Assembly (NCBI RefSeq): GCF_003430825.1 | Contig: NZ_CP024047.1 | Span: forward strand, 1,054,001 to 1,118,000 | Direction: 5' to 3' | DNA from: Natrarchaeobaculum sulfurireducens | GTDB taxonomy: Archaea > Halobacteriota > Halobacteria > Halobacteriales > Natrialbaceae | Length of the DNA: 64,000 nucleotides | Shown here: positions 43,275-59,778 of the stretch, piece after piece | How the letters are laid out: each line of letters starts with the position of its first letter | How positions within the stretch are numbered: position 1 is the stretch's first letter | Translations under genes and position numbers: made by a program | Notes under the pieces: generated by a model | Database searches by the model: none | What the model was told of the DNA's origin: nothing | Seen by the model: the letters and a program-made list of their open reading frames with translations, nothing else

Positions 43275-46136
43275 ATGTCAGGGAAGGCCAACCTAGAACC
43301 GAAACGAGACACGCCGCCATCTCGACACCCGGATCCGTTCTTCGGTGAAGAAATAGCCACTGGCATCGGTGGGCTCGTCTGTCTCGATACCACCGGGACG
43401 ATCGTCTTCGCCGGTCCGTACGTCGGGGAACTCGTCGGATACGACCCGGATGAGTTGTTCGGCCGACCGCTCGTGGACCTCTTCGCCGACGACCGAGACG
43501 ACCCACTCGAGCAGTTCCTCGAGCAGGGCCGATCGCGTCCCAAGCATCAGGACGACACACTGAGCGGCGGGGCACTGGAATGTACTCACTCGCTCGTCCA
43601 CGGTGACGGTCGGCTCGTTCCGGTCACCCTCGCGGTCGACGAGGTCGAGCACGATGGACGCCGACTCCTGATCGTTCGGCTTCGAAACCGGACCGAACTC
43701 GAGGCGGACCGACGGTACGACGGGGTCGTCAACACCGTCGCTGACGGGATCTACTACCTCGACAGTGAGGGACGATTCGTCGCGGTCAACGATCGGATCG
43801 TCGAGGCGACCGGGTACGAGCGCGACTACCTCCTCGGGGAGCACGTCTCGGTGCTTCTCGACGACGAGACGATCGAGCGAACCGAACACCGGATCCGTGA
43901 ACTGATGCGGACCGGCGGAGAGTCGGTTACGCTCGATCTCGACGTCACGACCGCGACGGGCGAGCAACTCCCCTGTGAGTTGCGCCTGTCAGTTCTCGAG
44001 CGACACGGCGAGTTCGTCGGAACCGTCGGCGTGGTTCGCGACGTCACCGACCGCCTCGAGCGAGAACGCGCCGTCGAGCACCGATCGGCCGTGATCGAGT
44101 CGGCGATCGATGGGATGGGATTCTCCGACGAGACCGGCGAGCTCTGCTACGTGAACCCTGCTCTAGCCGAGTTACACGGCTACGACGAGCCGGAAGCCCT
44201 CGTCGGGACCTCCTGGAAGGTGCTTTTCCCCGAAGAAGAGGCCGACCGCATCGAACGGGAGATCCTGCCGATCGTCCTCGAACGTGGCTACTGGCGCGGC
44301 GAGGCGACCGGGAAGCGCGCGGACGGCTCACGGTTCCCCCAGGAGCACTCGCTTACGGCCCACGGCGACGGGATCGTCTGCGTCGCTCGTGACATCACCG
44401 AACGGAAAACGAGAGAACGACAGCTCGAGGCGCTCATCGAAGTCGCCCGCGAACTGATGAGCGCGGACACCCACGACGATATCGCCCAGATCGGGATCGA
44501 GGCGGTCGAGAACGTCCTCGAGTTCGAGGTCGCCTGTATCCGCCTGTTCGACGAGGACGCGAACCGTCTCGCGTTCGTTGCGCTGACCGACGGTGCCCTG
44601 GAGCTTCTCGAGACGCAGATGGCGTACGACCTGGAGTCGACGCTCGCCGGCCGGGCGTTCAGAGACGAGGAGCCGCTGATCAACGCGACCGATCAACGCG
44701 GCGATGTCGGCTCCGAGTCGCCGTTCGAGAACGCGAGCGTTCACGTTCCGATCGGACGGTGTGGGGTTCTCAGCTTCATCGTTCGAAGCGATGAACAGGT
44801 CGACGACAACGACGTCCACCTCGTCGAACTGCTGGCGATGGGGATCGGAGCGGCGCTGGAGCGGGCCGACCGAACCCGCCTGCTCCGCACCCAGGAACGG
44901 GAGTTGCGCCAGCAGCACAACCAACTCGAGACGTTGATCCGGATCAACGCCGTCAACAACGAGATCAGCACCAGCCTCGTGGCGGCGACGGTTCGCGAGG
45001 AACTCGACCGGACGATCTGTGAGCACCTGGTGGAGTCGGAGTTCTATCAGAGCGCCTGGATTGGCCGCATCGAAGGGGCAAGCGATCGCTTCGGATCTGC
45101 CATTGGCGTCGGCGTCGAAGAGAGCTACCTCGACACAATCACGAACGCGTCGCTGTCGGGAATCGGTGGCGGCGTCGTCAAGCGAGCGATCGAGAGCCAG
45201 GAGATGCACGTCATCTACCAGTACCAGATCGACGGCATCAACGGGGCCGACGAGGAAGACGGTGAGGCCGGCGAGGACGTCGAGTCGATCGCGGCCGTGC
45301 CACTGCTGTTCGGCGATCGACTCGTCGGTGTCCTCGTCATCAACAGCGTTCGCGACGACGTCTTCTGTGAGCAGGCCGTCAGCGGCTTCGAATCGCTCGG
45401 GAAGGTCATCGGATTCGCACAGAACGCGCTCAAGAGCCGGAAGTTGCTCCTCGCCGATTCGATCGTCGAACTCGAGTTTCGCGTGGCCGATCCGGCCGTG
45501 TTTCACATCCGGCTCACGGCGGATCTCGACTGTCGGTGTGAGTTTCAGCGCGGAATTCCCATCGAAAACGGCCGTCTCATCACCTACGACAGGATCGTGG
45601 GCGCTGAGCCGTCGGCCGTCCTCGAGGTCGCCCAAGAGGCTGCTCACATCGAGCGCGCTCGCGTCGTCTCCGACCGTCCCGAGGGCTTCGTCCTCGAGAC
45701 CGTCACGTCACACTCGCTGGTCCAGCACGCACTCGAACTGGGGACGACCGTGCGGTCCGCGGTCGCCGACGGTGGCGAGGGGACGGTCCTCATCGAAGCA
45801 CCGCACACGGCAGACGTTCGCGAACTTGTCGGCGCGTTCGTGCGCGAGTTCGACGCGCTCGAACTCGTCGCAAAACGCGAGCGTGACCACTCCGTGACGA
45901 CCGCTGATGAGTTCCGTACTGCAGTCGCGACGAACCTCACGGAAAAACAATGCGGGGCGCTCGAGGCGGCGTACCTCGCTGGCTACTACGACTGGCCGCG
46001 GAAGACGACCGCCGAAGAACTCGCCGAGTCGATGGACATCTCGTCGTCGACCTTACACCAGCACCTCCGGAAAGCCAACTGGAACCTGCTGTCGGCGTTC
46101 TTCGACGAGCCGACGAGCACACCTCGAGTAGAATGA
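43275..46136 (+). CDS. PAS/GAF sensor regulator with bacterio-opsin-activator HTH (Bat-like)
   Basis: 953 residues. Three PAS domains lie at about 25-140, 145-260 and 265-375; the second reads DGIYYLDSEGRFVAVNDRIV. Two GAF domains follow at about 385-535 and 560-725, then a Bat beta-barrel domain (LEFRVADPAVFHIRLTADL onward) and a C-terminal HTH_10 at about 893-945, including LTEKQCGALEAAYLAGYYDW and ISSSTLHQHLRKAN. No kinase or receiver domain is present, so it likely senses a ligand, redox or light signal and binds DNA directly. Its stop overlaps the start of a small RHH-like gene (ATGA). Confidence 0.92.
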   Translation: MSGKANLEPKRDTPPSRHPDPFFGEEIATGIGGLVCLDTTGTIVFAGPYVGELVGYDPDELFGRPLVDLFADDRDDPLEQFLEQGRSRPKHQDDTLSGGALECTHSLVHGDGRLVPVTLAVDEVEHDGRRLLIVRLRNRTELEADRRYDGVVNTVADGIYYLDSEGRFVAVNDRIVEATGYERDYLLGEHVSVLLDDETIERTEHRIRELMRTGGESVTLDLDVTTATGEQLPCELRLSVLERHGEFVGTVGVVRDVTDRLERERAVEHRSAVIESAIDGMGFSDETGELCYVNPALAELHGYDEPEALVGTSWKVLFPEEEADRIEREILPIVLERGYWRGEATGKRADGSRFPQEHSLTAHGDGIVCVARDITERKTRERQLEALIEVARELMSADTHDDIAQIGIEAVENVLEFEVACIRLFDEDANRLAFVALTDGALELLETQMAYDLESTLAGRAFRDEEPLINATDQRGDVGSESPFENASVHVPIGRCGVLSFIVRSDEQVDDNDVHLVELLAMGIGAALERADRTRLLRTQERELRQQHNQLETLIRINAVNNEISTSLVAATVREELDRTICEHLVESEFYQSAWIGRIEGASDRFGSAIGVGVEESYLDTITNASLSGIGGGVVKRAIESQEMHVIYQYQIDGINGADEEDGEAGEDVESIAAVPLLFGDRLVGVLVINSVRDDVFCEQAVSGFESLGKVIGFAQNALKSRKLLLADSIVELEFRVADPAVFHIRLTADLDCRCEFQRGIPIENGRLITYDRIVGAEPSAVLEVAQEAAHIERARVVSDRPEGFVLETVTSHSLVQHALELGTTVRSAVADGGEGTVLIEAPHTADVRELVGAFVREFDALELVAKRERDHSVTTADEFRTAVATNLTEKQCGALEAAYLAGYYDWPRKTTAEELAESMDISSSTLHQHLRKANWNLLSAFFDEPTSTPRVE

Positions 46137-46456: not shown

Positions 46457-48358
46457 TCAGCCCAGGACGGCGGAGACGAGGCTGTCGACGGCTGCGCCGA
46501 TACTCGCGGTCAGGCTCGAGCGCGCGTCGTTCTCGTCATCATCGTCGCCATCGTCGCCATCGTCGTCATCATCGTCGGTATCGGTGGCTTGACCACAGTC
46601 GGAATCGTAGGACTCCTCGAAGCTGCTGTCGTCCATCGAACTCTCGAAGCTGCTGCGTTCGGAGTCGGTGTCGGAGTCGCTGCGGGTACTCTCTCGCTGG
46701 TCGACGTCGCTGTCGCTGTCGCTCTCTTCGAGCGTGCTCTCGGTCTGGCTGTCGTCGGTGCGCTCTGAGCGGTCAGACTGGCTGACGTCGGCGGCGCTGT
46801 CGGAGTCGTTGCTGGAGTCGTTCTCGACGTCGAGGTCCTCAACGGTGTCGACGCCGCTGTCGCTCTCGCTGTCGGTGTCGAGTGCGGAATCGCTCGATTC
46901 GCTGTACTCGCTCTCACTTACGTCACTCTCGTCGCTGGTCGTACTCCCATCGCGCTCGCTGTACGTGCGGTCGCTCGAGAGTTCGCTCTCGTCGACGTCG
47001 ATGCTCCGTTCTTCGTTGTCGTTGTCGGTGGTGTCGAGGCTGTGCTCCTGTTGGTCGCTCTCGGCCTCGCCGCGGTCGCTTTCGTGCTGGTCGCTCGCGG
47101 ATTCGCTGTGAGCCCGGTCGCTGTCGCTGGTGCTCGCGTCGCGGTCGCTCTCGTCGACGGACTGTTCGGAGCCCTGTCGGTCGGTCTGGCTCGCGTCGCG
47201 TTCGGAGTCGTCGTACTCGCTACGATCGCTGTCGCTGTCGGAGCTGGAGCGGTCGCTCTGGGTGAGTTCGGTCTCCATGGCGTCGCGGTCGGACTCGTCG
47301 AAGGCGCTCTCGCTGACGCTACGGTCGCTCTCGCTCGCGTCACTGTCGCTCTGGGTACGCTCTTCACTGTCACTGTCGCTGTCGCTGTCGATGCGGTCGA
47401 AGCTATCGCGGTCGTTCTCGCCGCGGTCGACTTCGTCGCGTTCGTCGCTTTCGGAGTCGGTCTCACGCTCTTCGCTCTCGCTTTCTTGGCTCTCGCTCTC
47501 GTCGCTTTCTCGGTCGTCTTCGTCGTACTCGCTCTCGCTCACATCGCTCTTGCTCTCCTCGACGGTCTGCTCGTCGCGGTCGCTCTCGTCCATCTCGCTG
47601 TCGCTATCGCTCTCCTCGAGGCTGCTCGAGTCGGATTCGCTGACGTCGACGTCGCGGTCGTCGTAGTCGACGTCGCTTTCGCTGACGTCGCTCTCGCTTT
47701 CGTCTGTCGAGGCCTCGCTCTCGTCGGTGTCGACCGAGCTGTCACTTGCACTGACGTCGCGCTCGTCGGAGGTGCTGTCGCTCGCGCTCGCGTCGCTCTC
47801 GCTGTGTGTGCTGTCACGGTCGGTCGTCCTGTCCTCGCGCTCACTGACGTCACGGTCGAGGTCGCTCTCGTCCTCGGCGATCTCGACGTCCGAGTCGTCG
47901 ATCTGGCTCTGGCTCTCCGAGCGGTCGCTCTCGTCGACGTCGCTGACGTCGCGCTCGCTGCTCGAGTCACGCGCTTCGTCGCGGTCGTTCTCCTCGTAGG
48001 TGCTGCCGTCGCGGTCGGAGACGCTGTCGCTTTCGCTGTCACGGTCGCTCTCTTCGAGTTCGCTCTCTTCGAACTCACTCGAGCTGTCGCTCGTACTGTC
48101 GCTCTCGCTCAGGTCGGCGTCGCTCGAACTCTCTCGGAGATCACTACTGGATCGGTCCCGCTCGCTACTACTGTCCTGTTCGGTTTCCTCGGTTTCGTCC
48201 GACGACGAGGTACTGTCGTCGACGGTTTCGCCTTCGTCACACCGATCGTCCACTTGCATGCTAGCGCCGGAGCTCGCTCCGGCAAGGCCGCTTACGCCGG
48301 TTACCCCCGCTAACACCAAGAGACCAATCACTGTGAGGATTGTTACGTTCTGGAACAT
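46457..48358 (-). CDS. Ser/Asp/Glu/Arg repeat surface protein 1
   Basis: 633 residues: an N-terminal secretion or anchor helix (ILTVIGLLVLAGVTGVSGLAGA), about 540 residues built of short Ser-, Asp-, Glu- and Arg-rich units such as SESDSD and DERD, an Asp tract, and a C-terminal amphipathic SSLTASIGAAVDSLVSAVLG. The only cysteines are Cys40 and Cys588, flanking the repeat block. The protein is extremely soluble and unfolded by composition. Its ends match the neighbour at 51155. Likely extracellular; function unknown. Confidence 0.88.
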   Translation of the reverse strand: MFQNVTILTVIGLLVLAGVTGVSGLAGASSGASMQVDDRCDEGETVDDSTSSSDETEETEQDSSSERDRSSSDLRESSSDADLSESDSTSDSSSEFEESELEESDRDSESDSVSDRDGSTYEENDRDEARDSSSERDVSDVDESDRSESQSQIDDSDVEIAEDESDLDRDVSEREDRTTDRDSTHSESDASASDSTSDERDVSASDSSVDTDESEASTDESESDVSESDVDYDDRDVDVSESDSSSLEESDSDSEMDESDRDEQTVEESKSDVSESEYDEDDRESDESESQESESEERETDSESDERDEVDRGENDRDSFDRIDSDSDSDSEERTQSDSDASESDRSVSESAFDESDRDAMETELTQSDRSSSDSDSDRSEYDDSERDASQTDRQGSEQSVDESDRDASTSDSDRAHSESASDQHESDRGEAESDQQEHSLDTTDNDNEERSIDVDESELSSDRTYSERDGSTTSDESDVSESEYSESSDSALDTDSESDSGVDTVEDLDVENDSSNDSDSAADVSQSDRSERTDDSQTESTLEESDSDSDVDQRESTRSDSDTDSERSSFESSMDDSSFEESYDSDCGQATDTDDDDDDGDDGDDDDENDARSSLTASIGAAVDSLVSAVLG

Positions 48359-48411
48359 TCGATGCTCTGACCCAATCTCGTAGGTCGGCTCACCCTTCGA
48401 CACAGGGGCTC

Positions 48412-48447
48412 AAGAACTGGCGACGAAGGCCCGGGAAGATCCGGGAG
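48412..48447 (-). promoter_or_regulatory. 36-bp block conserved upstream of repeat-protein genes, copy 1
   Basis: AAGAACTGGCGACGAAGGCC, continuing CGGGAAGATCCGGGAG, is identical to 53102-53137. It contains CCCGG and CCGGG around a six-base loop, so it can form a hairpin. It ends 54 nt before the ATG of the repeat gene. The GGCGACGAAG core also lies before the third repeat gene (55247-55256). Confidence 0.6.
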
Positions 48448-48544
48448 CGATCGGGGGTGCCACCAGTTGCCCTCGAGGAGAATCTTCCCGGTTCGACGGG
48501 CATCTTCACCCACTGTACTTGCCCTGGGGCCACCGGAATCGACT

Positions 48545-49606
48545 ATGAACCGAATCGACCGTCGAACGTACCTCGCGCTGGTCGGTGGCGCCACCGTCGC
48601 CATGGCCGGCTGTTCGGGTGAGGACGACGAGCCGTCGATGGACGAGCGTGACGCGGACGAATCGGCTACAGCGGCCGACGACGCCACCTCGAGCGACGAC
48701 CCCGACCCAGGCACCGACTCGGTCTCCGAGCGAGCCGAATCCGACGACCAGACCGACGAGGCCGAACTCGGCGAACTCCTCGAGGTCGATCCCCTCAGTG
48801 CGGTCGTCTCGACGCTCGAGGTGGTCGAGGACGCCGTGATCGAGCCCGACGACGAGGTACTCGGGGCCGAGGACGGACGGGCGTTCGCCGTCGTCGACGT
48901 CGCCTTCCAGCACGCCGACGACGGGGTCGAGCCGGTGATCGACGTCGACGAGACGGTGGCGGTCGAACTCGGCGACGAGGACGGCAAGACGTACGACCGC
49001 GTGGACGAACTCGAGATCACAGCACTCGACCCCACTGCGAGTCGCCTCGCACCTGGCGAAGTCGTCCGCGGTGATCTCATCTACGACGTTGTCGACGACG
49101 CCGAGGGACTCGTACTCGAACTCGAGCCGGAAGCGAGCGGCGACTCAGTCGTCGTCGACCTCGGGGCGGAGTCGGACGACGAGCGCGTCGAGACGCTCGA
49201 ACAGGAGGTCGCGGAGGTAGAGACGTTCTCTCAGGGCGTCGAGCACGGCGGGATCGACGTCGCGGTCGGGAGTCTCGAACACGGGAACAACCTCGGCGGA
49301 TTCATGCAGTCCGACGAGGGGTACGAAATCGTCGCGGTCGGCGTCACCGTTCATAACGGAAGCGGTCGGGATCGGGCGCTTACGCCGGAGCAGACCCAGC
49401 TCAAAGACGACACGGGGCGGATCTACGCCGAAACGTCCGGGACGATGCGGACGCTCGGCGGGCTCGAGGACGTGACGGTTTCCGACGGCGAATCGTACGA
49501 GGGCACCGTCGCCTATCAGATCGCGGAGGGGACCGACGACCTGTACTGGATCTTTGACTTCACGGAGTGGGGAGAAACCCAGCGGGTGTTCTGGCAGTTA
49601 CGGTGA
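48545..49606 (+). CDS. Tat lipoprotein with DUF4352-like domain(s)
   Basis: 353 residues: Tat signal DRRTYLALVGGATVAMAGC with a lipobox, an Asp/Ser/Ala-rich spacer (to about 75), then two beta-sandwich regions. The second, YEIVAVGVTVHNGSGRDRAL to YEGTVAYQIAEGTDDLYWIF, fits the DUF4352 immunoglobulin-like fold. It is divergent from repeat protein 1 and probably lipid-anchored outside the cell. Substrate or partner unknown. Confidence 0.85.
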   Translation: MNRIDRRTYLALVGGATVAMAGCSGEDDEPSMDERDADESATAADDATSSDDPDPGTDSVSERAESDDQTDEAELGELLEVDPLSAVVSTLEVVEDAVIEPDDEVLGAEDGRAFAVVDVAFQHADDGVEPVIDVDETVAVELGDEDGKTYDRVDELEITALDPTASRLAPGEVVRGDLIYDVVDDAEGLVLELEPEASGDSVVVDLGAESDDERVETLEQEVAEVETFSQGVEHGGIDVAVGSLEHGNNLGGFMQSDEGYEIVAVGVTVHNGSGRDRALTPEQTQLKDDTGRIYAETSGTMRTLGGLEDVTVSDGESYEGTVAYQIAEGTDDLYWIFDFTEWGETQRVFWQLR

Positions 49607-49786
49607 GGGCAGTTCAGATACCGAGTGCGAACCTCGAGTCGCCTCTCTCACCCAATCGACGCGTCGACCTCATCCAATCACATCCCGGACGTGGCGGCGT
49701 CGAGACAGTACAGACAGCCGCTCACGCCATCGTCGTTGTCCCCGAACACTCGAACGTACGCTCGAGAGAGATCACTTCCGAAGCGA

Positions 49787-49963
49787 TCACACGAGTGCAT
49801 TGTCGACGCGAAGCGCGTTGGTCTCCTCGGTTTCGTAGGCGGCCATGATGAGGCCGACGACCTCCGGGTTGGACGGCTCGTAGCCGAGTTGCTGTTCCAT
49901 ACTGGCTTTGATTTCTTCGAATCGGTCACTTTTCGATCCGTAGAGTTTGATGTGTGAGGTCAT
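49787..49963 (-). CDS. Small ribbon-helix-helix-like protein, copy 2
   Basis: 58 residues: TSHIKLYGSKSDRFEEIKAS, MEQQLGYEPSNPEVVGLIMA and AYETEETNALRVDNALV. It differs from copy 3 at only a few positions and shares the SIKLYGSK...GYEPSNPEVVGL core with copy 1. The frame is below common length cut-offs. It converges with the DUF4352 lipoprotein gene. Confidence 0.82.
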   Translation of the reverse strand: MTSHIKLYGSKSDRFEEIKASMEQQLGYEPSNPEVVGLIMAAYETEETNALRVDNALV

Positions 49964-50677
49964 GTGTCGTCACGTCTCCGTGTCACCGCAGTTGGTCTTC
50001 GGGGGCGACCGTGCCGTCGTTCGTCGGTCCCGTCGTGCACCGACGCGGGAACGACGACTCGTATCAGCCGGAGTGGCATCTCGTGCTGGCCGGAGGGTCC
50101 CTGCGTCCCCGCTCGCCGACGGCGATACCAACGGCCGTCCCGGATCGTCGCCGTCCCCCGAACGGCAGCCGATCGCTCCCATATGCTCACGAACGACAGC
50201 CATTGACACATATCGGCTACCTCTGTAGTTGCAACGGGGCGACCGAAGTACGTTGGTCGGTCCATCCACCAGGCCGGTGGATCTATAGTAGTCGTTGAAA
50301 CGATTTACGCATCGTTCGCACTCGAGCGGCCAGCATCTGCCGTGTTGGCCGCTGAATCGCGAGCGAGAGTGCAATGACTTTCACTGCCTGCTAGTTCGTC
50401 CAATCGGCTCATCGAGTCAGTCGCGCCAGTCGGCTCTGAAGGGGGAATTCCACCGAGCTATGGCGAGCATCGTCGCCTGGTGTGTGATTCGTCGTCCGTT
50501 CATGGATCGAGAAGCACCGCGGCTTTCGAGAACTGTCGGGACCGGTCGTGGTGGACCGACGCGATCCGAATCCGGATTGCTGGCTTCGAACGCCGGTGGG
50601 AGTCGTCGATTCGTTGGTACTCCGAGTGGTGTGTGGAGACGAGACGAGTTCTGCTGTCATCGACTCGAGCCCGGCCG
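49964..50677. other. 714-bp gap with MITE-like copy E, no confirmed gene
   Basis: Apart from the palindromic element at 50283-50394, I see only Arg/Ser/Pro-rich frames. The 83-codon minus-strand frame ending at 50409 has weak protein character. Two or three broken genes could be hidden here, but none can be supported. Confidence 0.5.
50283..50394. repeat. Palindromic MITE-like element, copy E
   Basis: 112 bp. The left end is CTATAGTAGTCGTTGAAACG and the right end, on the other strand, CTAGCAGGCAGTGAAAGTC. The centre is a stem GCGGCCAGCA (50326-50335) with TGTTGGCCGC (50343-50352), symmetric about the element midpoint. The overall design equals copies A and C. Confidence 0.6.
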
Positions 50678-50839
50678 TCAGATCGCCTGCTGCAGTTCGA
50701 TTGCGTACGGCGAACTGATCCAGGCGCCCTGTTGCTGTTCGTCGTATATCGTGACGAGGCCGCTGATGTCGACGGTTGCGACGACGCTCGTCGGAACGTC
50801 GGGCGATTCCGGATCAGGGAAGAGGTCGTTCGTTGCCAT
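50678..50839 (-). CDS. Small DUF7331-like protein
   Basis: 53 residues: MATNDLFPDPESPDVPTSVV, then ATVDISGLVTIYDEQQQGAW and ISSPYAIELQQAI. The core 'G-V-IYD-x5-AWIxSxxAxxL' recurs in small haloarchaeal proteins of the DUF7331 type. No function is known. It is too short for most gene finders. Confidence 0.72.
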   Translation of the reverse strand: MATNDLFPDPESPDVPTSVVATVDISGLVTIYDEQQQGAWISSPYAIELQQAI

Positions 50840-51154
50840 GGTGATGAGGGTGGGCGAACGTGGCTCGGTGGACCACGACTCGCGTCTCAGTTCTCAGTAG
50901 GTGGCCGGAGTGCAACTGTTCGCTGCCCAGTTACCTCGATCCGACCGCCCGACACACGTTAGCAAGAGTCTGTCGGTCCCGACAGTGCGTGACCCGCTCG
51001 AGGTGTCGCCCTCGAACAGCTGGGTGATTCGACTGTGGGAACACCGCGGAAGGTCAGGTCGTCCCGATCGAGTCGCTCCTTGAGGGGCGACACCAGGATC
51101 GTGCGGTCGCTCGGGGGGACACCGGCTCTCAAAAATAGAAGGGGAGTTCGCGTC
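50840..51154. other. Intergenic region, no gene recognised
   Basis: 315 bp between the DUF7331-like gene and repeat protein 2 (whose 3' end is at 51155). No AT-rich promoter is obvious apart from tctcaaaaatagaag at 51126-51140, which could be a terminator or promoter. The short frames are not protein-like. Confidence 0.5.
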
Positions 51155-53047
51155 TTAGCCAAGCAGGCCGGAGACGAGGCTGTCGACGGCTGCGCCGATG
51201 CTCGCGGTCAGGCTCGAGCGGGCGTCGTTATCGTCGTCATTATCCTCATCGCCGTCATCATCGTCGGTGTCGGTGACTTGACCACAGTCGGAGTCGTAGG
51301 ACTCCTCGAAGCTGCTGTCGTCCATCGAACTCTCGAAGCTGCTGCGTTCGGAGTCGGTGTCGGAGTCGCTTCGAGTGCTGTCTCGTTCGTCGACGTCGCT
51401 GTCACTGTCACTGCTCTCGAGCGTGCTCTCGGTCTGGCTGTCGTCGGTGCGCTCTGAGCGGTCAGACTGGCTGACGTCGGCGGCGCTGTCGGACTCGCTG
51501 CTGGAGTCGCTCTCGACGTCGACGTTCTCGAGGGTGTCGACGCCAGTGTCACTCTCACTGTCGGAGTCGAGTGCGGACTCGGTCGATTCGCTGTACTCGC
51601 TCTCGCTTACGTCGCTCTCGTCGCTGGTTGTACTCCCGTCGCGCTCGCTGGAGGAGCGGTCGCTCGAGAGTTCACTCTCGTCGGTCGCGTTACTGCGCTG
51701 TTCGCTGTCGTTATCGCTGCTGTCGAGGCTACTGTCTTGGTGGTCGCTCTGAGTGTCGCTGCTGTCGCTCTCACTCGCGTCGCTGTCGGACTCGCTGTGG
51801 GTCCGGTCGCTGTCAGCGCTGCTCGCGTCACGGTCGCTCTCGTCTGCGGAGCTCTCTGCGCCCTGGCGGTCGCTCTGGCTCGCATCACGCTCGGAGTCGT
51901 CGCTCTCGCTGCGGTCGCTGTCGCTGTCGGAGCTGGAGCGGTCGCTCTGGGTGAGTTCGGTTTCCGAGGCGTCGCGGTCGGACTCGTCGAAGGCACCCTC
52001 GCTCACGCTGCGGTCGCTGTCGCTGGCGTCGCTGTCGGAGCGGTCGTGTTCTTCGGAGTCGCTGTCGGACTCGCTGTCGATGCGGTCGAAGCTGTCGCGG
52101 TCGTTCTCGCCGCGGTCGACTTCGTCGCGCTCGTCGCTTTCGGAGTCGCTTTCGCTGTTCGAGCGTTCGCTCTCGTCGGAGCTGCTCTCGTCGGACTCGC
52201 TCTCGTCTTCGTCGCGATCGTGGTCGCTCACGTCGCTACGGCTCTCCTCGAGGACGCGCTCGTCGAGGTCGCTCACGTCTTCGTCGCTCTGACTGTCGTG
52301 TTCGTCTGCGGCGCTCGCGTTGGATTCGCTGACGTCGACGTCGCGGTCGTCGTAGTCGACGTCGCTCTCGCTGACGTCGCTTCGGCTCTCGTCTGTCGAA
52401 CTGGCGCTCTCGTCGGTGTCACTCGAGCTGTCGCTTTCGCTCGAGTCACTGGCCTCGGAGGCGTGATCGCTTTCGTTCGAGTCGCGCTCGCTGTGTGTGC
52501 TGTCCTGGTCGCTCGCGCTCTCGGTGCGTTCGCTTTCGTCACGGTCGAGGTCGCTCTCGTCTTCGGTGACCTCGACGTCCGAGTCGTCGATCTCGCCGTG
52601 ACTCTCGTCGTAGTTACTCTCGTCGACAGTGTTGACGTCGCGCTCACTGCTCGAGTCGTGCGCTTCGTTACGGTCGTTCTCTTCGAAGGAACTGGCGTCA
52701 CGATCGGAGTCGCTGTCACTGGAGCTGTCACGGTCGCTCTCTTCGAGTTCGCTTTCGTCGAACTCGCTCGAGTTGTCGCTCGAACTGTCGCTCTCGCTCA
52801 AGTCGGAGTCACTCGAACTCTCTCGGAGATCGCTACTAGATCGGTCCCGCTCGCTACTGCTGTCTGTCTCACGTTCCTCCTCGTCGTCTGCCGACGACGT
52901 ACTGTCGTCGACGGTTTCGCCTTCGTCACATCGATCGTCCACTTGCATGCTCCCACCGGCACTCGCGCCGGCGAGTCCGCTGACGCCGGCCGCACCGGAG
53001 ACCACCAAGAGACCAATCACTGTGAGGATTGTTACGTTCTGTATCAT
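51155..53047 (-). CDS. Ser/Asp/Glu/Arg repeat surface protein 2
   Basis: 630 residues, close paralogue of the protein at 46457. It has the same anchor (QNVTILTVIGLLVVSGAAGV), the same SMQVDDRCDEGETVDDSTSS entry and the same C-terminal SSFESSMDDSSFEESYDSDC and SLTASIGAAVDSLVSGLLG. Cysteines are again only Cys40 and Cys588, although the repeat interior differs by many substitutions. The upstream 36-bp block is identical. It is presumed exported; the repeats would be fully hydrated in salt. Confidence 0.88.
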   Translation of the reverse strand: MIQNVTILTVIGLLVVSGAAGVSGLAGASAGGSMQVDDRCDEGETVDDSTSSADDEEERETDSSSERDRSSSDLRESSSDSDLSESDSSSDNSSEFDESELEESDRDSSSDSDSDRDASSFEENDRNEAHDSSSERDVNTVDESNYDESHGEIDDSDVEVTEDESDLDRDESERTESASDQDSTHSERDSNESDHASEASDSSESDSSSDTDESASSTDESRSDVSESDVDYDDRDVDVSESNASAADEHDSQSDEDVSDLDERVLEESRSDVSDHDRDEDESESDESSSDESERSNSESDSESDERDEVDRGENDRDSFDRIDSESDSDSEEHDRSDSDASDSDRSVSEGAFDESDRDASETELTQSDRSSSDSDSDRSESDDSERDASQSDRQGAESSADESDRDASSADSDRTHSESDSDASESDSSDTQSDHQDSSLDSSDNDSEQRSNATDESELSSDRSSSERDGSTTSDESDVSESEYSESTESALDSDSESDTGVDTLENVDVESDSSSESDSAADVSQSDRSERTDDSQTESTLESSDSDSDVDERDSTRSDSDTDSERSSFESSMDDSSFEESYDSDCGQVTDTDDDDGDEDNDDDNDARSSLTASIGAAVDSLVSGLLG

Positions 53048-53101
53048 TCTACGCTCGTGAACCTATCCCGTAGGTCACTGCTCGCTTCGCCAGTTGGTGT
53101 T

Positions 53102-53137
53102 AAGAACTGGCGACGAAGGCCCGGGAAGATCCGGGAG
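53102..53137 (-). promoter_or_regulatory. 36-bp block conserved upstream of repeat-protein genes, copy 2
   Basis: Identical to 48412-48447 and located 55 nt before the ATG of repeat protein 2. Outside this block and the start-codon region the two upstream sequences differ, which argues for selection or recent conversion. Confidence 0.6.
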
Positions 53138-53266
53138 AGATCGCGCTTGCTGACCCCGATTGGCCCACGCACGGGTCGCCGTCGGCAGTCCGACGGACGT
53201 CGAACTCGTCGTCGATCCGCTGGGTCGAAAAATTTCGTGGGCTGAAGCCGCAACCGCTGTCACAGC

Positions 53267-55156
53267 TTACTCGAGTTTGCTGACGTCGACATCGTAAGAG
53301 CCGTCGTCGTTCTCGACGAGAACGCCGTTTCGCTCGAGTTCCTGGGGACTGTCGCCGGTGACGATCAGCCGTTCGGAGATCGTCTCGCAGTCGGAGTCGG
53401 TCGTCTGTTCGCGCTCGCTCTGGTCTCGTTCACTTTCGGCTCGTTCACGCTCGCTGTCGGCGTCGGACTCGCTGCGGTCGCTGTCTCGCGTCTCGAGGTC
53501 GCGTTCGCTCTCGCTGACGTCACGCTCGCTCTCGCGTTCGCTCTCGTCGGCGCGTTCGCTGCGGTCGCGGTCGCTCTCGTCGCGTTCGCTATCGCGGTCA
53601 CTGAGCCGCTCGCGTTCGGTGTCGGTGTCTACGTGCTCGTCGACGCCCGTATCGCGCTCGCTCAGGGTGTCGCGTTCGGACGCCGTGGACTCGCTCAGGT
53701 CACGCTCGCTCTCCTCACGGTCGTCGGAATACTGACTCCCGTCGCGCTCGCTCGAGGTTCGGTCGGCCTCGCTACCGCGGTCAGCACGCTCGCTTTCGGC
53801 GCGTTCGGTGTCGTTGTCCGTGGTATCGAGCGTCGTTTGCTGCTGGTCGCGCTCCGTGTCGCTGCGCTCGCTTTCGAACTCCTCGGCGTCGAAGTCGCTG
53901 CGAGCGCTCTCGCTGTCGGCGGTACTCGCCTCTCGGTCGCTCTCCTCGAGCGTGTACTCGCTGCCCTGGCGGGCCTGATCGTGTTCGTCGAGGACCGAGT
54001 CGAAGGATTCGCTCAGGAACGATCCGCTGGTGAACTCACTGCGGTCGCGCTCGCTGCGGTCGCTCTCTGTCGCCGACTCCTCGCTCTCGTCGCGATCCGA
54101 GTCGCTCGTTTCGCGTTCCTGTTCGTGTTCGGTCTGCTCGCTCGAGTCCGACGCCGCACGCGCTGTGTCGTGTTCGCTGTCGGCGCGTTCTTGCGCATCG
54201 GTGTCCTCGCCACGGTCGAAGCGGTCGGCGTCGATCCGTTCGGTGTCGCTTTCGCTTCCGGACTCCTCGTGTTCCTCGCTCGAGGTGGCGTCACGGTCGC
54301 TCTCGCGCTCGTCGGCGGTACTCTCACTCGCGTCGCTCGTGTTCTCCTCGGCAGATCGTTCCTCGAGATTGCGTTCGTCCGCGGTAGTCTCGTCGTCGGT
54401 CGTTTCGATGTCGCTGCTGTCGTGTTCGCTCGTCTCACGCGCGGTGTCGTCGTGGTCGACGTCGCTCTCACTCCGGTCGCTGGCGTGCTCGTCAGCGACG
54501 GCGTCGCGCTCGTCTGCCTCACTCGCGCTTTCGCTTTCACTCGCCTCGCTCTCGTCGCTGGCACTGTCGCTTGCACTCGAGTCGGTCTCGCTGTGGGTGC
54601 TGTCGCCGTCCGACTCGGTCGCGTCACGTTCGCTGACGTCGTGCTCGCTGTCGCGTTCGCTCTCGTTGATTTCGACGTCGGTGTCGTCGATTTCGCTCTC
54701 GCTGACGTCGCGTGCGGAGTCGTCGACCTCGCTGGCGTCGCGCTCGCTGCTCGAGTCGCGCGCTTCGTCGCGGTCGTTCACTTCGAACTCGCTGCCGTCG
54801 CGGTCGTACTCGCTGTCGCTTGCGCTGTCGCGCTCGCTCAACTCGCGCTCGCTCTCGTCGAGTGCGCTCGAGCTCTCGCTCTGGCTGTCGCGTTCGCTGA
54901 CGTCTCGATCACGGTCGTTTTCGCGGTGGTCGGTGTTCGCTCGGTCACGCTCGCGCTCGCTCTGGCTGTCGCGTTCGTCGATCTCGCTCGTGACGTCGAG
55001 GGTTTCGTCCAGGTGCTCGCTCACGTCGCATCGCTCGTCGTCCAAGGTGTAGATGACGGTCTGGTCGTCACCGTTGGTGACGCCGCCAGTCGCGGCGACG
55101 ACGCCACCTAACACCAGGAGAGCGGCCAACGCGAGGACACCAACGTGGTCTATCAT
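53267..55156 (-). CDS. Ser/Asp/Glu/Arg repeat surface protein 3 (divergent)
   Basis: 629 residues: anchor GVLALAALLVLGGVVAATGG, a short entry with Cys43 (TLDDERCDVSEHLDE), about 540 residues of Ser/Asp/Glu/Arg units richer in ERD and RDSE than its neighbours, then Cys590 (SDCETISERLIVTGDSP) and a folded-looking end NGVLVENDDGSYDVDVSKLE. The two cysteines are again the only ones, 547 positions apart. Third member of the tandem family, with different terminal domains. Confidence 0.87.
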   Translation of the reverse strand: MIDHVGVLALAALLVLGGVVAATGGVTNGDDQTVIYTLDDERCDVSEHLDETLDVTSEIDERDSQSERERDRANTDHRENDRDRDVSERDSQSESSSALDESERELSERDSASDSEYDRDGSEFEVNDRDEARDSSSERDASEVDDSARDVSESEIDDTDVEINESERDSEHDVSERDATESDGDSTHSETDSSASDSASDESEASESESASEADERDAVADEHASDRSESDVDHDDTARETSEHDSSDIETTDDETTADERNLEERSAEENTSDASESTADERESDRDATSSEEHEESGSESDTERIDADRFDRGEDTDAQERADSEHDTARAASDSSEQTEHEQERETSDSDRDESEESATESDRSERDRSEFTSGSFLSESFDSVLDEHDQARQGSEYTLEESDREASTADSESARSDFDAEEFESERSDTERDQQQTTLDTTDNDTERAESERADRGSEADRTSSERDGSQYSDDREESERDLSESTASERDTLSERDTGVDEHVDTDTERERLSDRDSERDESDRDRSERADESERESERDVSESERDLETRDSDRSESDADSERERAESERDQSEREQTTDSDCETISERLIVTGDSPQELERNGVLVENDDGSYDVDVSKLE

Positions 55157-55587: not shown

Positions 55588-56223
55588 TCAGTCGCCGGAG
55601 TGGACGACGATCTCAACGGTATCGCCAGCACCCTCGCTCGCGTCGTCGACGGACTCGACACCCTCGAGGACGTACTCCTGGGGATCGACCGGGTCGCCGT
55701 CGACGGTCACGCTGACTTCGTCACCGGCGTCCGCGTCGAACTCCTGGCCGTCGACGGCGAACGTCTCGGCCGTCACGCTCATCCCGAGCGTCTCGAGGGC
55801 GTACTCGATCGTCACGCCGTCGCAGTGGGTGTGCCACACCGCCGCGTCGTCGTACGCGTGGAAGTGGAAACAGCCGTCGGCCTCGATGTACTGTGGCTGG
55901 TTGAAGTCGACGGTGGTGTCGTCGTACTGGACGGAAAGCTGTCCGTGTTCGTGGATCTGAGTGGTCGTATCCGGCTGTGTGGCGGCGGAGCTGTCGCCGT
56001 CGTCGGCACCGAGAAACACCAGGGCGTATCCGAGCACGAACACGGCGACGACGATACCCACGCCGGCGTACAGCGCCAGATTCCGTGGTTTCGTCCGATC
56101 TCGAGGCGGATCGAGGCGTCGGGAATCGATCGCCCGCAACTCGTCGGCGTGGGCCTGCCTGAGATGGTCGTCGTACGCTTCCTCGGGGACCGCCGCTCCG
56201 CAGTACGCACAGTGTGTTTGCAT
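55588..56223 (-). CDS. Membrane-anchored protein with N-terminal zinc finger and external His-rich domain
   Basis: 211 residues. The N-terminus MQTHCAYCGAAVPEEAYDDH with HLRQAHADEL forms a C2H2-like finger. One membrane helix follows (LALYAGVGIVVAVFVLGYAL, about 62-81), then an external domain with CFHFHAYDDAAVWHTHC, a dense His/Cys patch that could bind copper or another metal, and an acidic beta-rich end (EVSVTVDGDPVDPQEYVLEG). The start at 56223 opens directly with the finger. Confidence 0.8.
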   Translation of the reverse strand: MQTHCAYCGAAVPEEAYDDHLRQAHADELRAIDSRRLDPPRDRTKPRNLALYAGVGIVVAVFVLGYALVFLGADDGDSSAATQPDTTTQIHEHGQLSVQYDDTTVDFNQPQYIEADGCFHFHAYDDAAVWHTHCDGVTIEYALETLGMSVTAETFAVDGQEFDADAGDEVSVTVDGDPVDPQEYVLEGVESVDDASEGAGDTVEIVVHSGD

Positions 56224-56811: not shown

Positions 56812-59340
56812 TCACTCCTTGGGGTCTGGGTCGTCAGTGAACACTATCGAGAGGAGCTTTCGCTGGGCGACCCGGAGGTGGTTGTTGAACGTCGGTTGCG
56901 AGACGCCGAGGAGGTCGGCGACCCCCTCTCCGGTCGTCTCTCGAGGCACGTCGAAGTAGCCGCTGAGAAACGCCGTCTCGAGCGCCTCGAACTGCTTGTC
57001 CGTCAGTGCGTTCTCGAGGTCCGACCGGAAGCCGTAGCCGGGCCGATCGACGAACTCGTGATCTTGCCGTCTGACGAGCGTCGAGTCGGGATAGAGGCCG
57101 GTGAAAAAGCCGACGAACTCCCTGACAGTCGTTCGATCGGGGAGCGAGACGACGAGCCGCCCGGCGTCTTCAGACGCCGACATCGTCTTCGGAAGCACGC
57201 CGTACTCGAGGAGGCGAGCGACGACGCTGTCTTCGGTGAAAGTACACTCGAACAGGTGTCTGTCACCCCGTTGTGTGACGAGTCGGGTCTCGGTAACCGA
57301 CGGCGACCGACTGGCGAGTTCGAGTATCCGCTCGACGGGTGCCCCGCTAATCGTAAAAAACCCACGGATCGATCCATCGGGCCGTGAGACGACCGTCTCG
57401 AACTCGAACGCACACCCCGTCTCGCGGGCCCACTCGAGGAACTCGATCTCACGGTCGCGGACGCGAAACTCGAGTTCGACGCCGCCGCGACCGACCAGTG
57501 CGGCCCTCGTTTCGATCGCGTGTATCGCCTGAGCGACCCAGCGTCCGAGGTCCTCGAAGAGGTCCCGCTCTGCATCGTCGAACCGATCCGGCTGTTCGCT
57601 GTACACGGCCAGCCCACCGTAGGTCCGCTCTCGGAAGACGAGCGGAACGCCGACGATCGATCGGTACCCTCGTGTGACCGCCTCCTGGCGCCACTGTTCG
57701 TCCACGGAGCCAGTCAGGAGGTGTCGGCTGGCCTGCACCGTTTTCGTCTCGATCGCCGTCGCCATCGGTTCGCCCTGGCCGACGAGCGTGTCCACGCTGG
57801 AATCGAGGCGCTCGAGGTAGGGCTTCTCGGCTCCAGCCCACGTCCGCTCGCGGACTCGTTCGTCGACCTCGTCGACGTCGGCGATCCTGACGAAATCGTA
57901 CTGGCCGGTTGCAACGACGTGCTCACAGATGGCCCGCTCGAGTTCGGGGCGCGTCCACGCCCGGCCGATCACTCGCGCGACGTGTCGAACCAGGTCGAGT
58001 CTCGTCTCGAAGCGTTCTGTCTCCAGGTTCGCCCGCTCGAGCCGTCTGTGACACTCGCTCAGACACCGTTGGGACTCGATTCGATCGAGCACCGTCCCGG
58101 CGGTCGCACTCGAGAGGCGAACAAACGCGTGATCGAGCGGCGTCAGTCGTGTCCCGTCGATCGTTCCGGCCACGAGAACGCCAGCAGTACCGACCGGCAC
58201 GACGAGCCCACGGGCCATCGCCGGATTCTGGACCGGCTCGGCCGGTTCGGGATGCACGTCGGCGACGAAGACCGGCGTCCGTTCGACGAAGGCAGTCCAG
58301 GCGGGCGTCGATTCCGCCTCGAACGACAGCGTGGTCGCCGATTCGTCGAACCGTGTGGTCACCGCCCGACGGGAGAGTCCGTCGGTGGGCTCGTCGTAGA
58401 GGTAGATCGCGACGGCCGCCGATTCGTTCCCGTTTTCGATCACCTCAACGACGGCCTCACAGAGGTCCTGGTCCGTGTCCGTCTCCGTCTCGTTTCCGAG
58501 GCGCTCCGTGACCATCGCTTCGAGTCGACTGAGTGCCCGCTCGAGCCCGATGGTGTCGTGATCGGTATCCGCAGTGATGCCAGCGGTTCGATCGCTCCGG
58601 TCGAAGACCGTACAGACGTACTGATCGTCCGCTCTGCGAGCGAGCGAGACGAGCACAGGGACGGCATCGCCGTCACGCCTGCGTGCAGTGACCTCCTCGA
58701 CTGTCCGGCCACGTCTTCGAACGCGGTCGAATACGGTCTCGAGCGTGCTCGCCTCGCTAGCAGGAAACACGCTCGGCAACGACTCTCCGATCAGGTGCTC
58801 CGGATCGTAGCCGAACAGTTCACCGTAGCTCGCACTGACCGCGACGAACGACCCCGACTCGTCCAGCAGACAGCTGCCGTCGACGACGTCACTGTAGAAC
58901 CCGTCCGAGCGCTCGAGTTCGTCCCCGTAGCGGCGATCGACGGCCCGTCGAACCCGCGATGCCAGCAGCCAGTATCCGGCATCGTCCGCGTCGGTCCGCA
59001 CGTAATCCGTCGCCCCCTGTGAGAGGGCCTCACCGACCAGATCGGTGGCGCGTATCTCCGAGAAGACGATGTACGGAAGTCCGGGAAACGAATCACACAC
59101 CGCTTCGAGCACGTCCAGGTCGTGGACGATCGGGGGCCGTATCTCCTGGACAACGCAGTCGACCGACTCGAGCGACCGAAATACGTCGTCGCTTCGGGAG
59201 GCAACCGTCACGTCGATCCCGAACTCGTCTTCGAAGACGGATTTCGCGGCTCGAACGGTCGTGGCACCCGTATCGACGAAGAGCACGCGAATGGGCTCCC
59301 TCGATCGTGGCGTCCCACGGGACGGCGTCGTGCTATTCAT
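56812..59340 (-). CDS. Bat-like regulator with degenerate receiver, PAS and GAF domains
   Basis: 842 residues. A receiver-like domain (about 17-130) has Glu66 where the phospho-acceptor Asp should be (DCVVQEIRPP). A PAS domain (about 150-255; GSFVAVSASYGELFGYDPEH) follows, then two GAF domains (about 300-440 and 460-620), a Bat domain (VELEFRVRDREIEFLEWARE) and a C-terminal HTH_10 at about 780-832, including LTDKQFEALETAFLSGYFDV and VSQPTFNNHLRVA. No kinase partner is nearby. The Glu may mimic constant phosphorylation. Its domain order differs from the gene at 43275. Confidence 0.92.
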   Translation of the reverse strand: MNSTTPSRGTPRSREPIRVLFVDTGATTVRAAKSVFEDEFGIDVTVASRSDDVFRSLESVDCVVQEIRPPIVHDLDVLEAVCDSFPGLPYIVFSEIRATDLVGEALSQGATDYVRTDADDAGYWLLASRVRRAVDRRYGDELERSDGFYSDVVDGSCLLDESGSFVAVSASYGELFGYDPEHLIGESLPSVFPASEASTLETVFDRVRRRGRTVEEVTARRRDGDAVPVLVSLARRADDQYVCTVFDRSDRTAGITADTDHDTIGLERALSRLEAMVTERLGNETETDTDQDLCEAVVEVIENGNESAAVAIYLYDEPTDGLSRRAVTTRFDESATTLSFEAESTPAWTAFVERTPVFVADVHPEPAEPVQNPAMARGLVVPVGTAGVLVAGTIDGTRLTPLDHAFVRLSSATAGTVLDRIESQRCLSECHRRLERANLETERFETRLDLVRHVARVIGRAWTRPELERAICEHVVATGQYDFVRIADVDEVDERVRERTWAGAEKPYLERLDSSVDTLVGQGEPMATAIETKTVQASRHLLTGSVDEQWRQEAVTRGYRSIVGVPLVFRERTYGGLAVYSEQPDRFDDAERDLFEDLGRWVAQAIHAIETRAALVGRGGVELEFRVRDREIEFLEWARETGCAFEFETVVSRPDGSIRGFFTISGAPVERILELASRSPSVTETRLVTQRGDRHLFECTFTEDSVVARLLEYGVLPKTMSASEDAGRLVVSLPDRTTVREFVGFFTGLYPDSTLVRRQDHEFVDRPGYGFRSDLENALTDKQFEALETAFLSGYFDVPRETTGEGVADLLGVSQPTFNNHLRVAQRKLLSIVFTDDPDPKE

Positions 59341-59778
59341 CGATGATCATTCCAGTCCGTCTGATCGACACTGTATCGGTAGGTTCCTCCCGACCGCCGA
59401 TCGTGGTCGTCCAGTTCGGCGAGCGCTCGAGCGATACCGGGAATTCACTCGTGATAACAGGTGACGCAGGTATAGAACGTCGATGCCGACGCTCCTAACT
59501 CTCGACACCCGACGTACGTTGGCGCTCGAGTGGCCGCCACTGAAGCCAGCGGTAGGACGATTGGTCCCCTCGCGGACGAGTCGAATGCCCCGACCGTCCT
59601 ACTCGCTCGTTCTCCCCCACTGTCGTCCCTGTGACTGGTAAAACGCGAACGCAAGCAACGGAAACGGCGAGTATATAACGTGAGACACTATCCGAATCGT
59701 CCCGTCTCAGCCGGTGGACTATCCACGTAGCGCCAGCCGTTTTGCCCGTGTCCAAAAGAGGCGCATTTGAACACCGAT
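59341..59778. other. Divergent intergenic region with TATA-like box
   Basis: 438 bp between divergent Bat-like and subtilase genes. gagtatataacgtg at 59670-59683 is a good TATA box for the rightward gene, about 100 nt before its ATG; other short AT stretches occur near 59340-59380. No gene is seen. Confidence 0.55.

Follow-up and report, generated by a model that had tools for sequence, protein, structure and literature searches.

Halomucin of Haloquadratum walsbyi, a secreted giant acidic haloarchaeal surface protein, is thought to form a protective coat. Here we describe acidic haloarchaeal proteins of about 630 amino acids (aa), for which a surface role is likewise proposed, and which are encoded by three genes in a stretch of 64,000 nucleotides from Natrarchaeobaculum sulfurireducens (contig NZ_CP024047.1, positions 1,054,001 to 1,118,000 of the forward strand; the whole stretch is referred to as the window). 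The proteins are of two types, A (two copies in the window) and B (one copy), each consisting of a hydrophobic N-terminus, a long low-complexity block with one cysteine at either end, and a short C-terminal part (Table 1). Halomucin is very much longer and of another build, whereas types A and B are paired and carry two cysteines at a fixed spacing.

The staphylococcal Sdr/Clf proteins are likewise secreted and have a long spacer rich in Ser and Asp; they combine a folded A domain with an LPXTG sorting signal, and their repeat number varies. In contrast, types A and B have neither the folded domain nor the signal (no Pfam domain and no LPXTG in their alignments), Glu and Arg occur in them too, and type A does not vary in length. 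Gel-forming mucins are low-complexity chains that have cysteines near either end, which is the plan for end-to-end disulfide polymers, and the proteins described here have their cysteines at both ends of such a chain. The ends of the mucins are, however, Cys-rich and folded and their repeat number is variable, whereas types A and B carry single end cysteines, and disulfides are only proposed. The comparison with phage tape-measure proteins and with FliK/YscP is that what counts is the length of the chain and not its precise sequence. Those molecular rulers determine how long an assembled tube becomes and differ from species to species along with it, but no assembly genes lie beside types A and B. 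Finally, acidic surface polymers help alkaliphilic bacteria (reviewed in PMC12457358), and the teichuronopeptide and SlpA of alkaliphilic Bacillus place negative charge outside the membrane in alkaline habitats (PMC12457358, PMC5938343). These are nevertheless bacterial polysaccharide/peptide or S-layer polymers without a disordered block of fixed length.

Length and sequence of the block between the cysteines

Profile searches were made in 125 genomes of the window's family, 392 sampled genomes of its order and 391 sampled genomes of its class. Intact members of type A or B were found in 18 haloarchaeal genomes from two families, i.e. 17 genomes of the window's family and one genome (G415) of another family in the same order. 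The distance between the two cysteines was exactly 548 in 21 of 22 type A proteins, that of G415 included. The lone exception, with a distance of 536, comes from Natronorubrum halalkaliphilum (G136), the one genome of its kind in that it is well assembled and no type B was found in it. The register of type A is gap-free along nearly the whole block, and pairwise ungapped identity goes down to 38%, where composition alone would give about 18%. As judged from these alignments, evolution appears to guard the length of the type A block more than its sequence, over half of the residues being free to differ. Beyond the second cysteine the same proteins have tails of 26 to 77 residues. The tails of the Natrialba proteins (L042, L043, L044) are 66-77 residues long and very acidic, with the 548 spacing unaltered.

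Type B is less strict. Its spacing is 547 in six proteins in all, 546 in three, and otherwise 541, 544, 545, 549, 551, 529 or 504. Most values thus fall within 541-551, and the outliers of 529 (G415) and 504 (G089) both occur beside a type A of 548; the commonest states are 548 for type A and 547 for type B. Length is accordingly conserved independently of sequence in type A, and not strictly so in type B. A previous sequence-only reading of the window had interpreted the repeat block as a length-controlled spacer, which is borne out strictly by type A and loosely by type B (504-551), and the widely varying cysteine spacing among homologues that it named as evidence to the contrary was not encountered in type A. 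The same reading had considered the repeats of the type B protein to be clearly different, which proved to be mistaken: type B is a homologue that aligns near column for column with the other two proteins, and in the window it is 46% identical to type A over the full length with a single 1-residue gap between the cysteines. Since the window proteins are homologous, their equal spacing could, within the window alone, be plain inheritance. That the spacing is conserved beyond plain inheritance follows from the constancy of type A among relatives in two families and at identities from 38%.

The trees of the two types are of equal length (4.21 substitutions per site for type A, 4.09 for type B), but parsimony gives one length change in type A and at least eight in type B, and the distinct gap intervals number 3 and 12, respectively. 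Under equal rates, the binomial probability that at most one of nine changes falls in type A is about 0.018 if the changes are treated as independent, though the branches of the trees are not independent and several holder genomes are close relatives. Because so few changes occurred in type A on a tree as long as that of type B, its length looks to be under selection rather than to reflect a low indel rate. The ratio of nonsynonymous to synonymous substitution rates (dN/dS) was 0.11-0.60 in pairwise comparisons, indicating purifying selection on real proteins.

Decayed copies were observed in two genomes. In G069 (L053:6346-6953) a type B relic is interrupted by a stop codon within the signal helix and has its repeat block deleted, and what remains, the start and the tail of type B, is in different frames. 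In G108 (L054:4284-5598) a shortened A-like relic has kept the first-cysteine region and the C-terminal helix and lost the block, and a broken B tail lies close to it. The loss of most of the block in these copies means that deletions do arise by mutation. Furthermore, the cores of types A and B are closer to each other within some clades (the g3 clade, i.e. Natronococcus, and G415) than same-type cores are across clades, which suggests exchange, or gene conversion, between them. Such exchange would carry type B indels into type A unless they were selected against. Long open frames also run antisense to the repeat genes, on the plus strand at window positions 51737-53245, 53633-55111 and 47042-48313, and are probably by-products of the codon usage of these genes. 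They cannot account for the fixed length, because 3-base indels keep both frames open.

In the blocks of both types Ser, Asp, Glu and Arg prevail, with almost no Lys and no Pro. The 36 aligned proteins have exactly two cysteines each, at the block ends, except for an extra cysteine in the signal helix of the G007 protein. For the window proteins, the positions given in the sequence-only reading (40/588, 40/588 and 43/590) were confirmed when counted from the ATG starts, and the three codons that it quoted are all second-cysteine codons; for type A copy 1, starting at an in-frame GTG at 48403 lengthens the open reading frame. According to the alignments, type A ends with an amphipathic helix or an Ala-rich segment after an acidic linker, and type B with a conserved tail of about 39 residues having DVDVSKL(E) as its final residues. 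AlphaFold models this tail as a beta-alpha-beta-beta block with a predicted local distance difference test (pLDDT) score of 68-75, whereas it gives no fold for the repeat block of either type (pLDDT 38), and the repeat block is predicted to be disordered. The sequence-only reading had envisaged the block as perhaps a rod or brush across the S-layer space; AlphaFold shows no fold in it. Invariant short motifs are scattered along the block. The acidic residues exhibit a quasi-period near 2.35 that beats composition shuffles but, when set against first-order Markov sequences, is at best marginally significant (P 0.025-0.34), and a heptad, helical or beta period is therefore not claimed.

A hydrophobic helix is present at the N-terminus of all members, followed in many by A-x-A-like sites; in the three window proteins the hydrophobic N-terminus is short. 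With such N-termini, and with a lipoprotein and a membrane protein encoded next to them, types A and B are very probably exported. Lipid anchoring through their cysteines, which had also been put forward, is unlikely. The first cysteine sits in an acidic DDRCD or DERCD context well downstream of the hydrophobic helix, and no lipobox was found there in any of the aligned proteins. Nor did the alignments contain the PGF motif of an archaeosortase-type C-terminus.

Gene neighbourhood and distribution

The recurrent neighbours of types A and B are a 200-odd-residue protein with a zinc finger and a transmembrane (TM) helix, a DUF4352 lipoprotein, and one or two regulators with PAS/GAF/BAT/HTH_10 domains. 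Relatives of the lipoprotein are neighbours in 14 other loci, i.e. in most of them.

Table 1. Genes and cysteine codons of the module, in window positions
Feature	Position	Strand	Remarks
Type A copy 1	46457..48358	minus	633 aa, ATG start at 48358; hydrophobic N-terminal signal, Cys40, 547-residue S/D/E/R block, Cys588, acidic linker, C-terminal amphipathic helix
Type A copy 1, Cys40 codon	48239..48241	minus	from translation
Type A copy 1, Cys588 codon	46595..46597	minus	from translation
Type A copy 2	51155..53047	minus	630 aa, ATG at 53047
Type A copy 2, Cys40 codon	52928..52930	minus	
Type A copy 2, Cys588 codon	51284..51286	minus	
Type B	53267..55156	minus	629 aa, ATG at 55156
Type B, Cys43 codon	55028..55030	minus	
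Type B, Cys590 codon	53387..53389	minus	
Predicted lipoprotein	48545..49606	plus	MAGC lipobox; DUF4352 (Pfam 4.8e-21)
Zinc-finger/TM protein	55588..56223	minus	211 aa; N-terminal zinc-finger motif, one TM helix, outer domain
Bat-type regulator	43275..46136	plus	PAS/GAF/BAT/HTH_10 (Pfam); relatives in most A/B loci
Bat-type regulator	56812..59340	minus	PAS/GAF/BAT/HTH_10, weak response-regulator match (Pfam); relatives in most A/B loci

The outer domain of the zinc-finger/TM protein carries the motifs HxHG, CFHFH and WHxHC, and the cysteine pair of the latter two is invariant among the aligned orthologues linked to types A and B. Orthologues scoring above 300 bits were found in 16 genomes of the family, all of them holders of type A or B, the next best score being 164 bits, and G415 also carries one. 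Other residues stand in place of the pair in all 16 readable paralogues, out of 32 regions. That the neighbour has a cysteine pair which its paralogues lack makes a disulfide use of the type A and B cysteines more likely. Paralogues with a zinc finger, a TM helix and a His-rich outer domain but no cysteine pair are present in haloarchaea without types A and B (L109-L117, L122-L127, L140, L141), and their outer domain had no Pfam match above threshold. No trace of the zinc-finger/TM partner was seen in the stretches examined of the decayed G069 and G108 loci. In one genome (G140, L039:7845-8648) the same zinc-finger/TM N-terminus as in the partner is joined to a DsbA-like thioredoxin domain (CPFC; Thioredoxin_4, 3e-23), and this protein lies between the two type A genes of that genome. 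A subtilase-family protease gene (window positions 59767-62493, plus strand; Peptidase_S8, 3.2e-54) adjoins the module in the window; it is not a conserved neighbour in most loci.

Types A and B co-occur in all holders save G136 and G127, the latter a fragmentary assembly, and the class-wide sample yielded no further holder. When named genomes of bacteria and archaea were scanned, many of the holders could be identified as Natrialbaceae. The named holders comprise Natronorubrum bangense, N. thiooxidans, N. halalkaliphilum and N. texcoconense; Natrialba chahannaoensis, N. hulunbeirensis and strain SSL1; Natronolimnohabitans innermongolicus; Natronococcus amylolyticus, N. pandeyae and others; Halostagnicola sp. 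A-GB9-2; and two metagenome-assembled genomes. Apart from strain AArc1 and the B1-Br10 metagenome, the remaining named holders are taken to be haloalkaliphiles, and the named holders are apparently mostly soda-lake organisms. The sulfur-respiring strain AArc1, probably the source of the window, is from a soda lake, and the soda-lake isolates of that study are described as obligate alkaliphiles (PMC6176080). The B1-Br10 metagenome, from which G002 derives, was obtained from soda-lake brine of pH 10.2 (PMC4766312). The association with soda lakes is a lead, and the proteins may serve adaptation to such lakes.

Types A and B match no known curated family, i.e. neither type had a match in Pfam or NCBIfam. 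Against the PDB, type A had no match at E values up to 1, and the type B tail alone, which had no Pfam match, gave a PDB match only at an E value of 0.89. Term searches of the literature, in which coverage is partial, returned no description of the family. A viral or plasmid origin was rejected, as no relative was found among viral contigs and no match in a plasmid collection. The copy of N. bangense sits on a record named as a plasmid. A match in G071 was spurious.

Possible roles of types A and B

At the level of sequence, the family, the fixed length of type A, the purifying selection, the gene module and the cysteine pair of the neighbour are established. The reading that we favour, if only tentatively, takes types A and B for secreted polyanions which bear cysteines at their ends and build a disulfide-linked surface coat, with the strand length set by type A. 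Both types would be exported as strongly acidic, Ser-rich, predicted-disordered chains with one cysteine at each block end. Outside the cell these cysteines would form disulfides between chains and/or to the cysteine-bearing outer domain of the zinc-finger/TM partner, and would in this way yield, at high pH and salt, a polyanionic coat or mesh that is tethered to the membrane. Type A would fix the strand length, with selection purging almost every indel in the 547-residue spacer, while its residues may change freely within the Ser/acidic/Arg alphabet. A stricter version, which we consider possible but somewhat doubtful, makes type A a true ruler of disordered polypeptide between two disulfide-forming ends, attached by a dedicated zinc-finger/TM partner with a cysteine pair, the length of the chain alone setting the spacing of an extracellular layer.

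Several points weigh against a surface coat of this kind. A disordered coat needs no exact residue count, and the length lock is thus not fully explained. The length of type B, which is presumed to be the partner, differs by as much as 44 residues, and the cysteine pair of the neighbour might coordinate a metal or form a disulfide within itself. Moreover, a pLDDT of 38 is too low to separate disorder from an unmodelled fold, and the link to soda lakes rests on the names of some genomes.

The length lock would be accounted for if types A and B formed a parallel two-chain ribbon, stapled Cys1-Cys1 and Cys2-Cys2, in which the two staples can meet only at equal length and type A serves as the template. 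This is in line with their alignment in register, about 1 residue apart in the commonest state, with their almost constant co-occurrence, and with the fact that G136, in which no type B was found, is the only genome with an altered type A length; the greater likeness of A and B cores within some clades is also as expected of in-register exchange. We nevertheless regard a ribbon as unlikely, since type B reaches 529 and 504 while type A keeps 548, a hydrophobic pairing pattern is absent, and G136 is a single instance. Another improbable solution is that the block folds in molar salt to a regular fibrous or ion-binding structure, whose register is broken by indels as in coiled coils and solenoids. 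Neither the lack of modelled structure nor the lack of family and PDB matches favours such a fold, the periodicity is marginal, and type B accepts indels of several sizes, although register-dependent structures typically accept substitutions but not indels, and the invariant motifs and the quasi-period of the acidic residues would fit.

That there is nothing special about the length, which would be passively inherited owing to rare indels or to A-B gene conversion, appears very unlikely. Conversion fits the similarity of A and B within clades, but it would also bring type B indels into type A unless these were selected against. In addition, type B of similar composition changed its length repeatedly in the same genomes, the type A tails vary freely, and decayed copies have lost the block. 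Hardly more probable is the suggestion that types A and B are not surface polymers at all but intracellular or secreted acidic proteins acting as chaperones or decoys. Disordered proteins that are very acidic can act as nucleic-acid mimics or chaperones, but the N-terminal helix of all members with its frequent A-x-A-like sites and the predicted lipoprotein and membrane protein nearby argue otherwise, and the presence of two conserved cysteines suggests oxidising surroundings.

In general, the length of disordered low-complexity regions is expected to vary without restraint. Types A and B provide a built-in control in this respect, as they have the same composition and occur in the same genomes, with one length frozen and the other drifting, and the pair makes selection on the length of a disordered chain directly testable. 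If the surface-coat reading is true, the proteins would also add to the envelope of haloalkaliphilic archaea a component not described before, which has a dedicated partner in the membrane.

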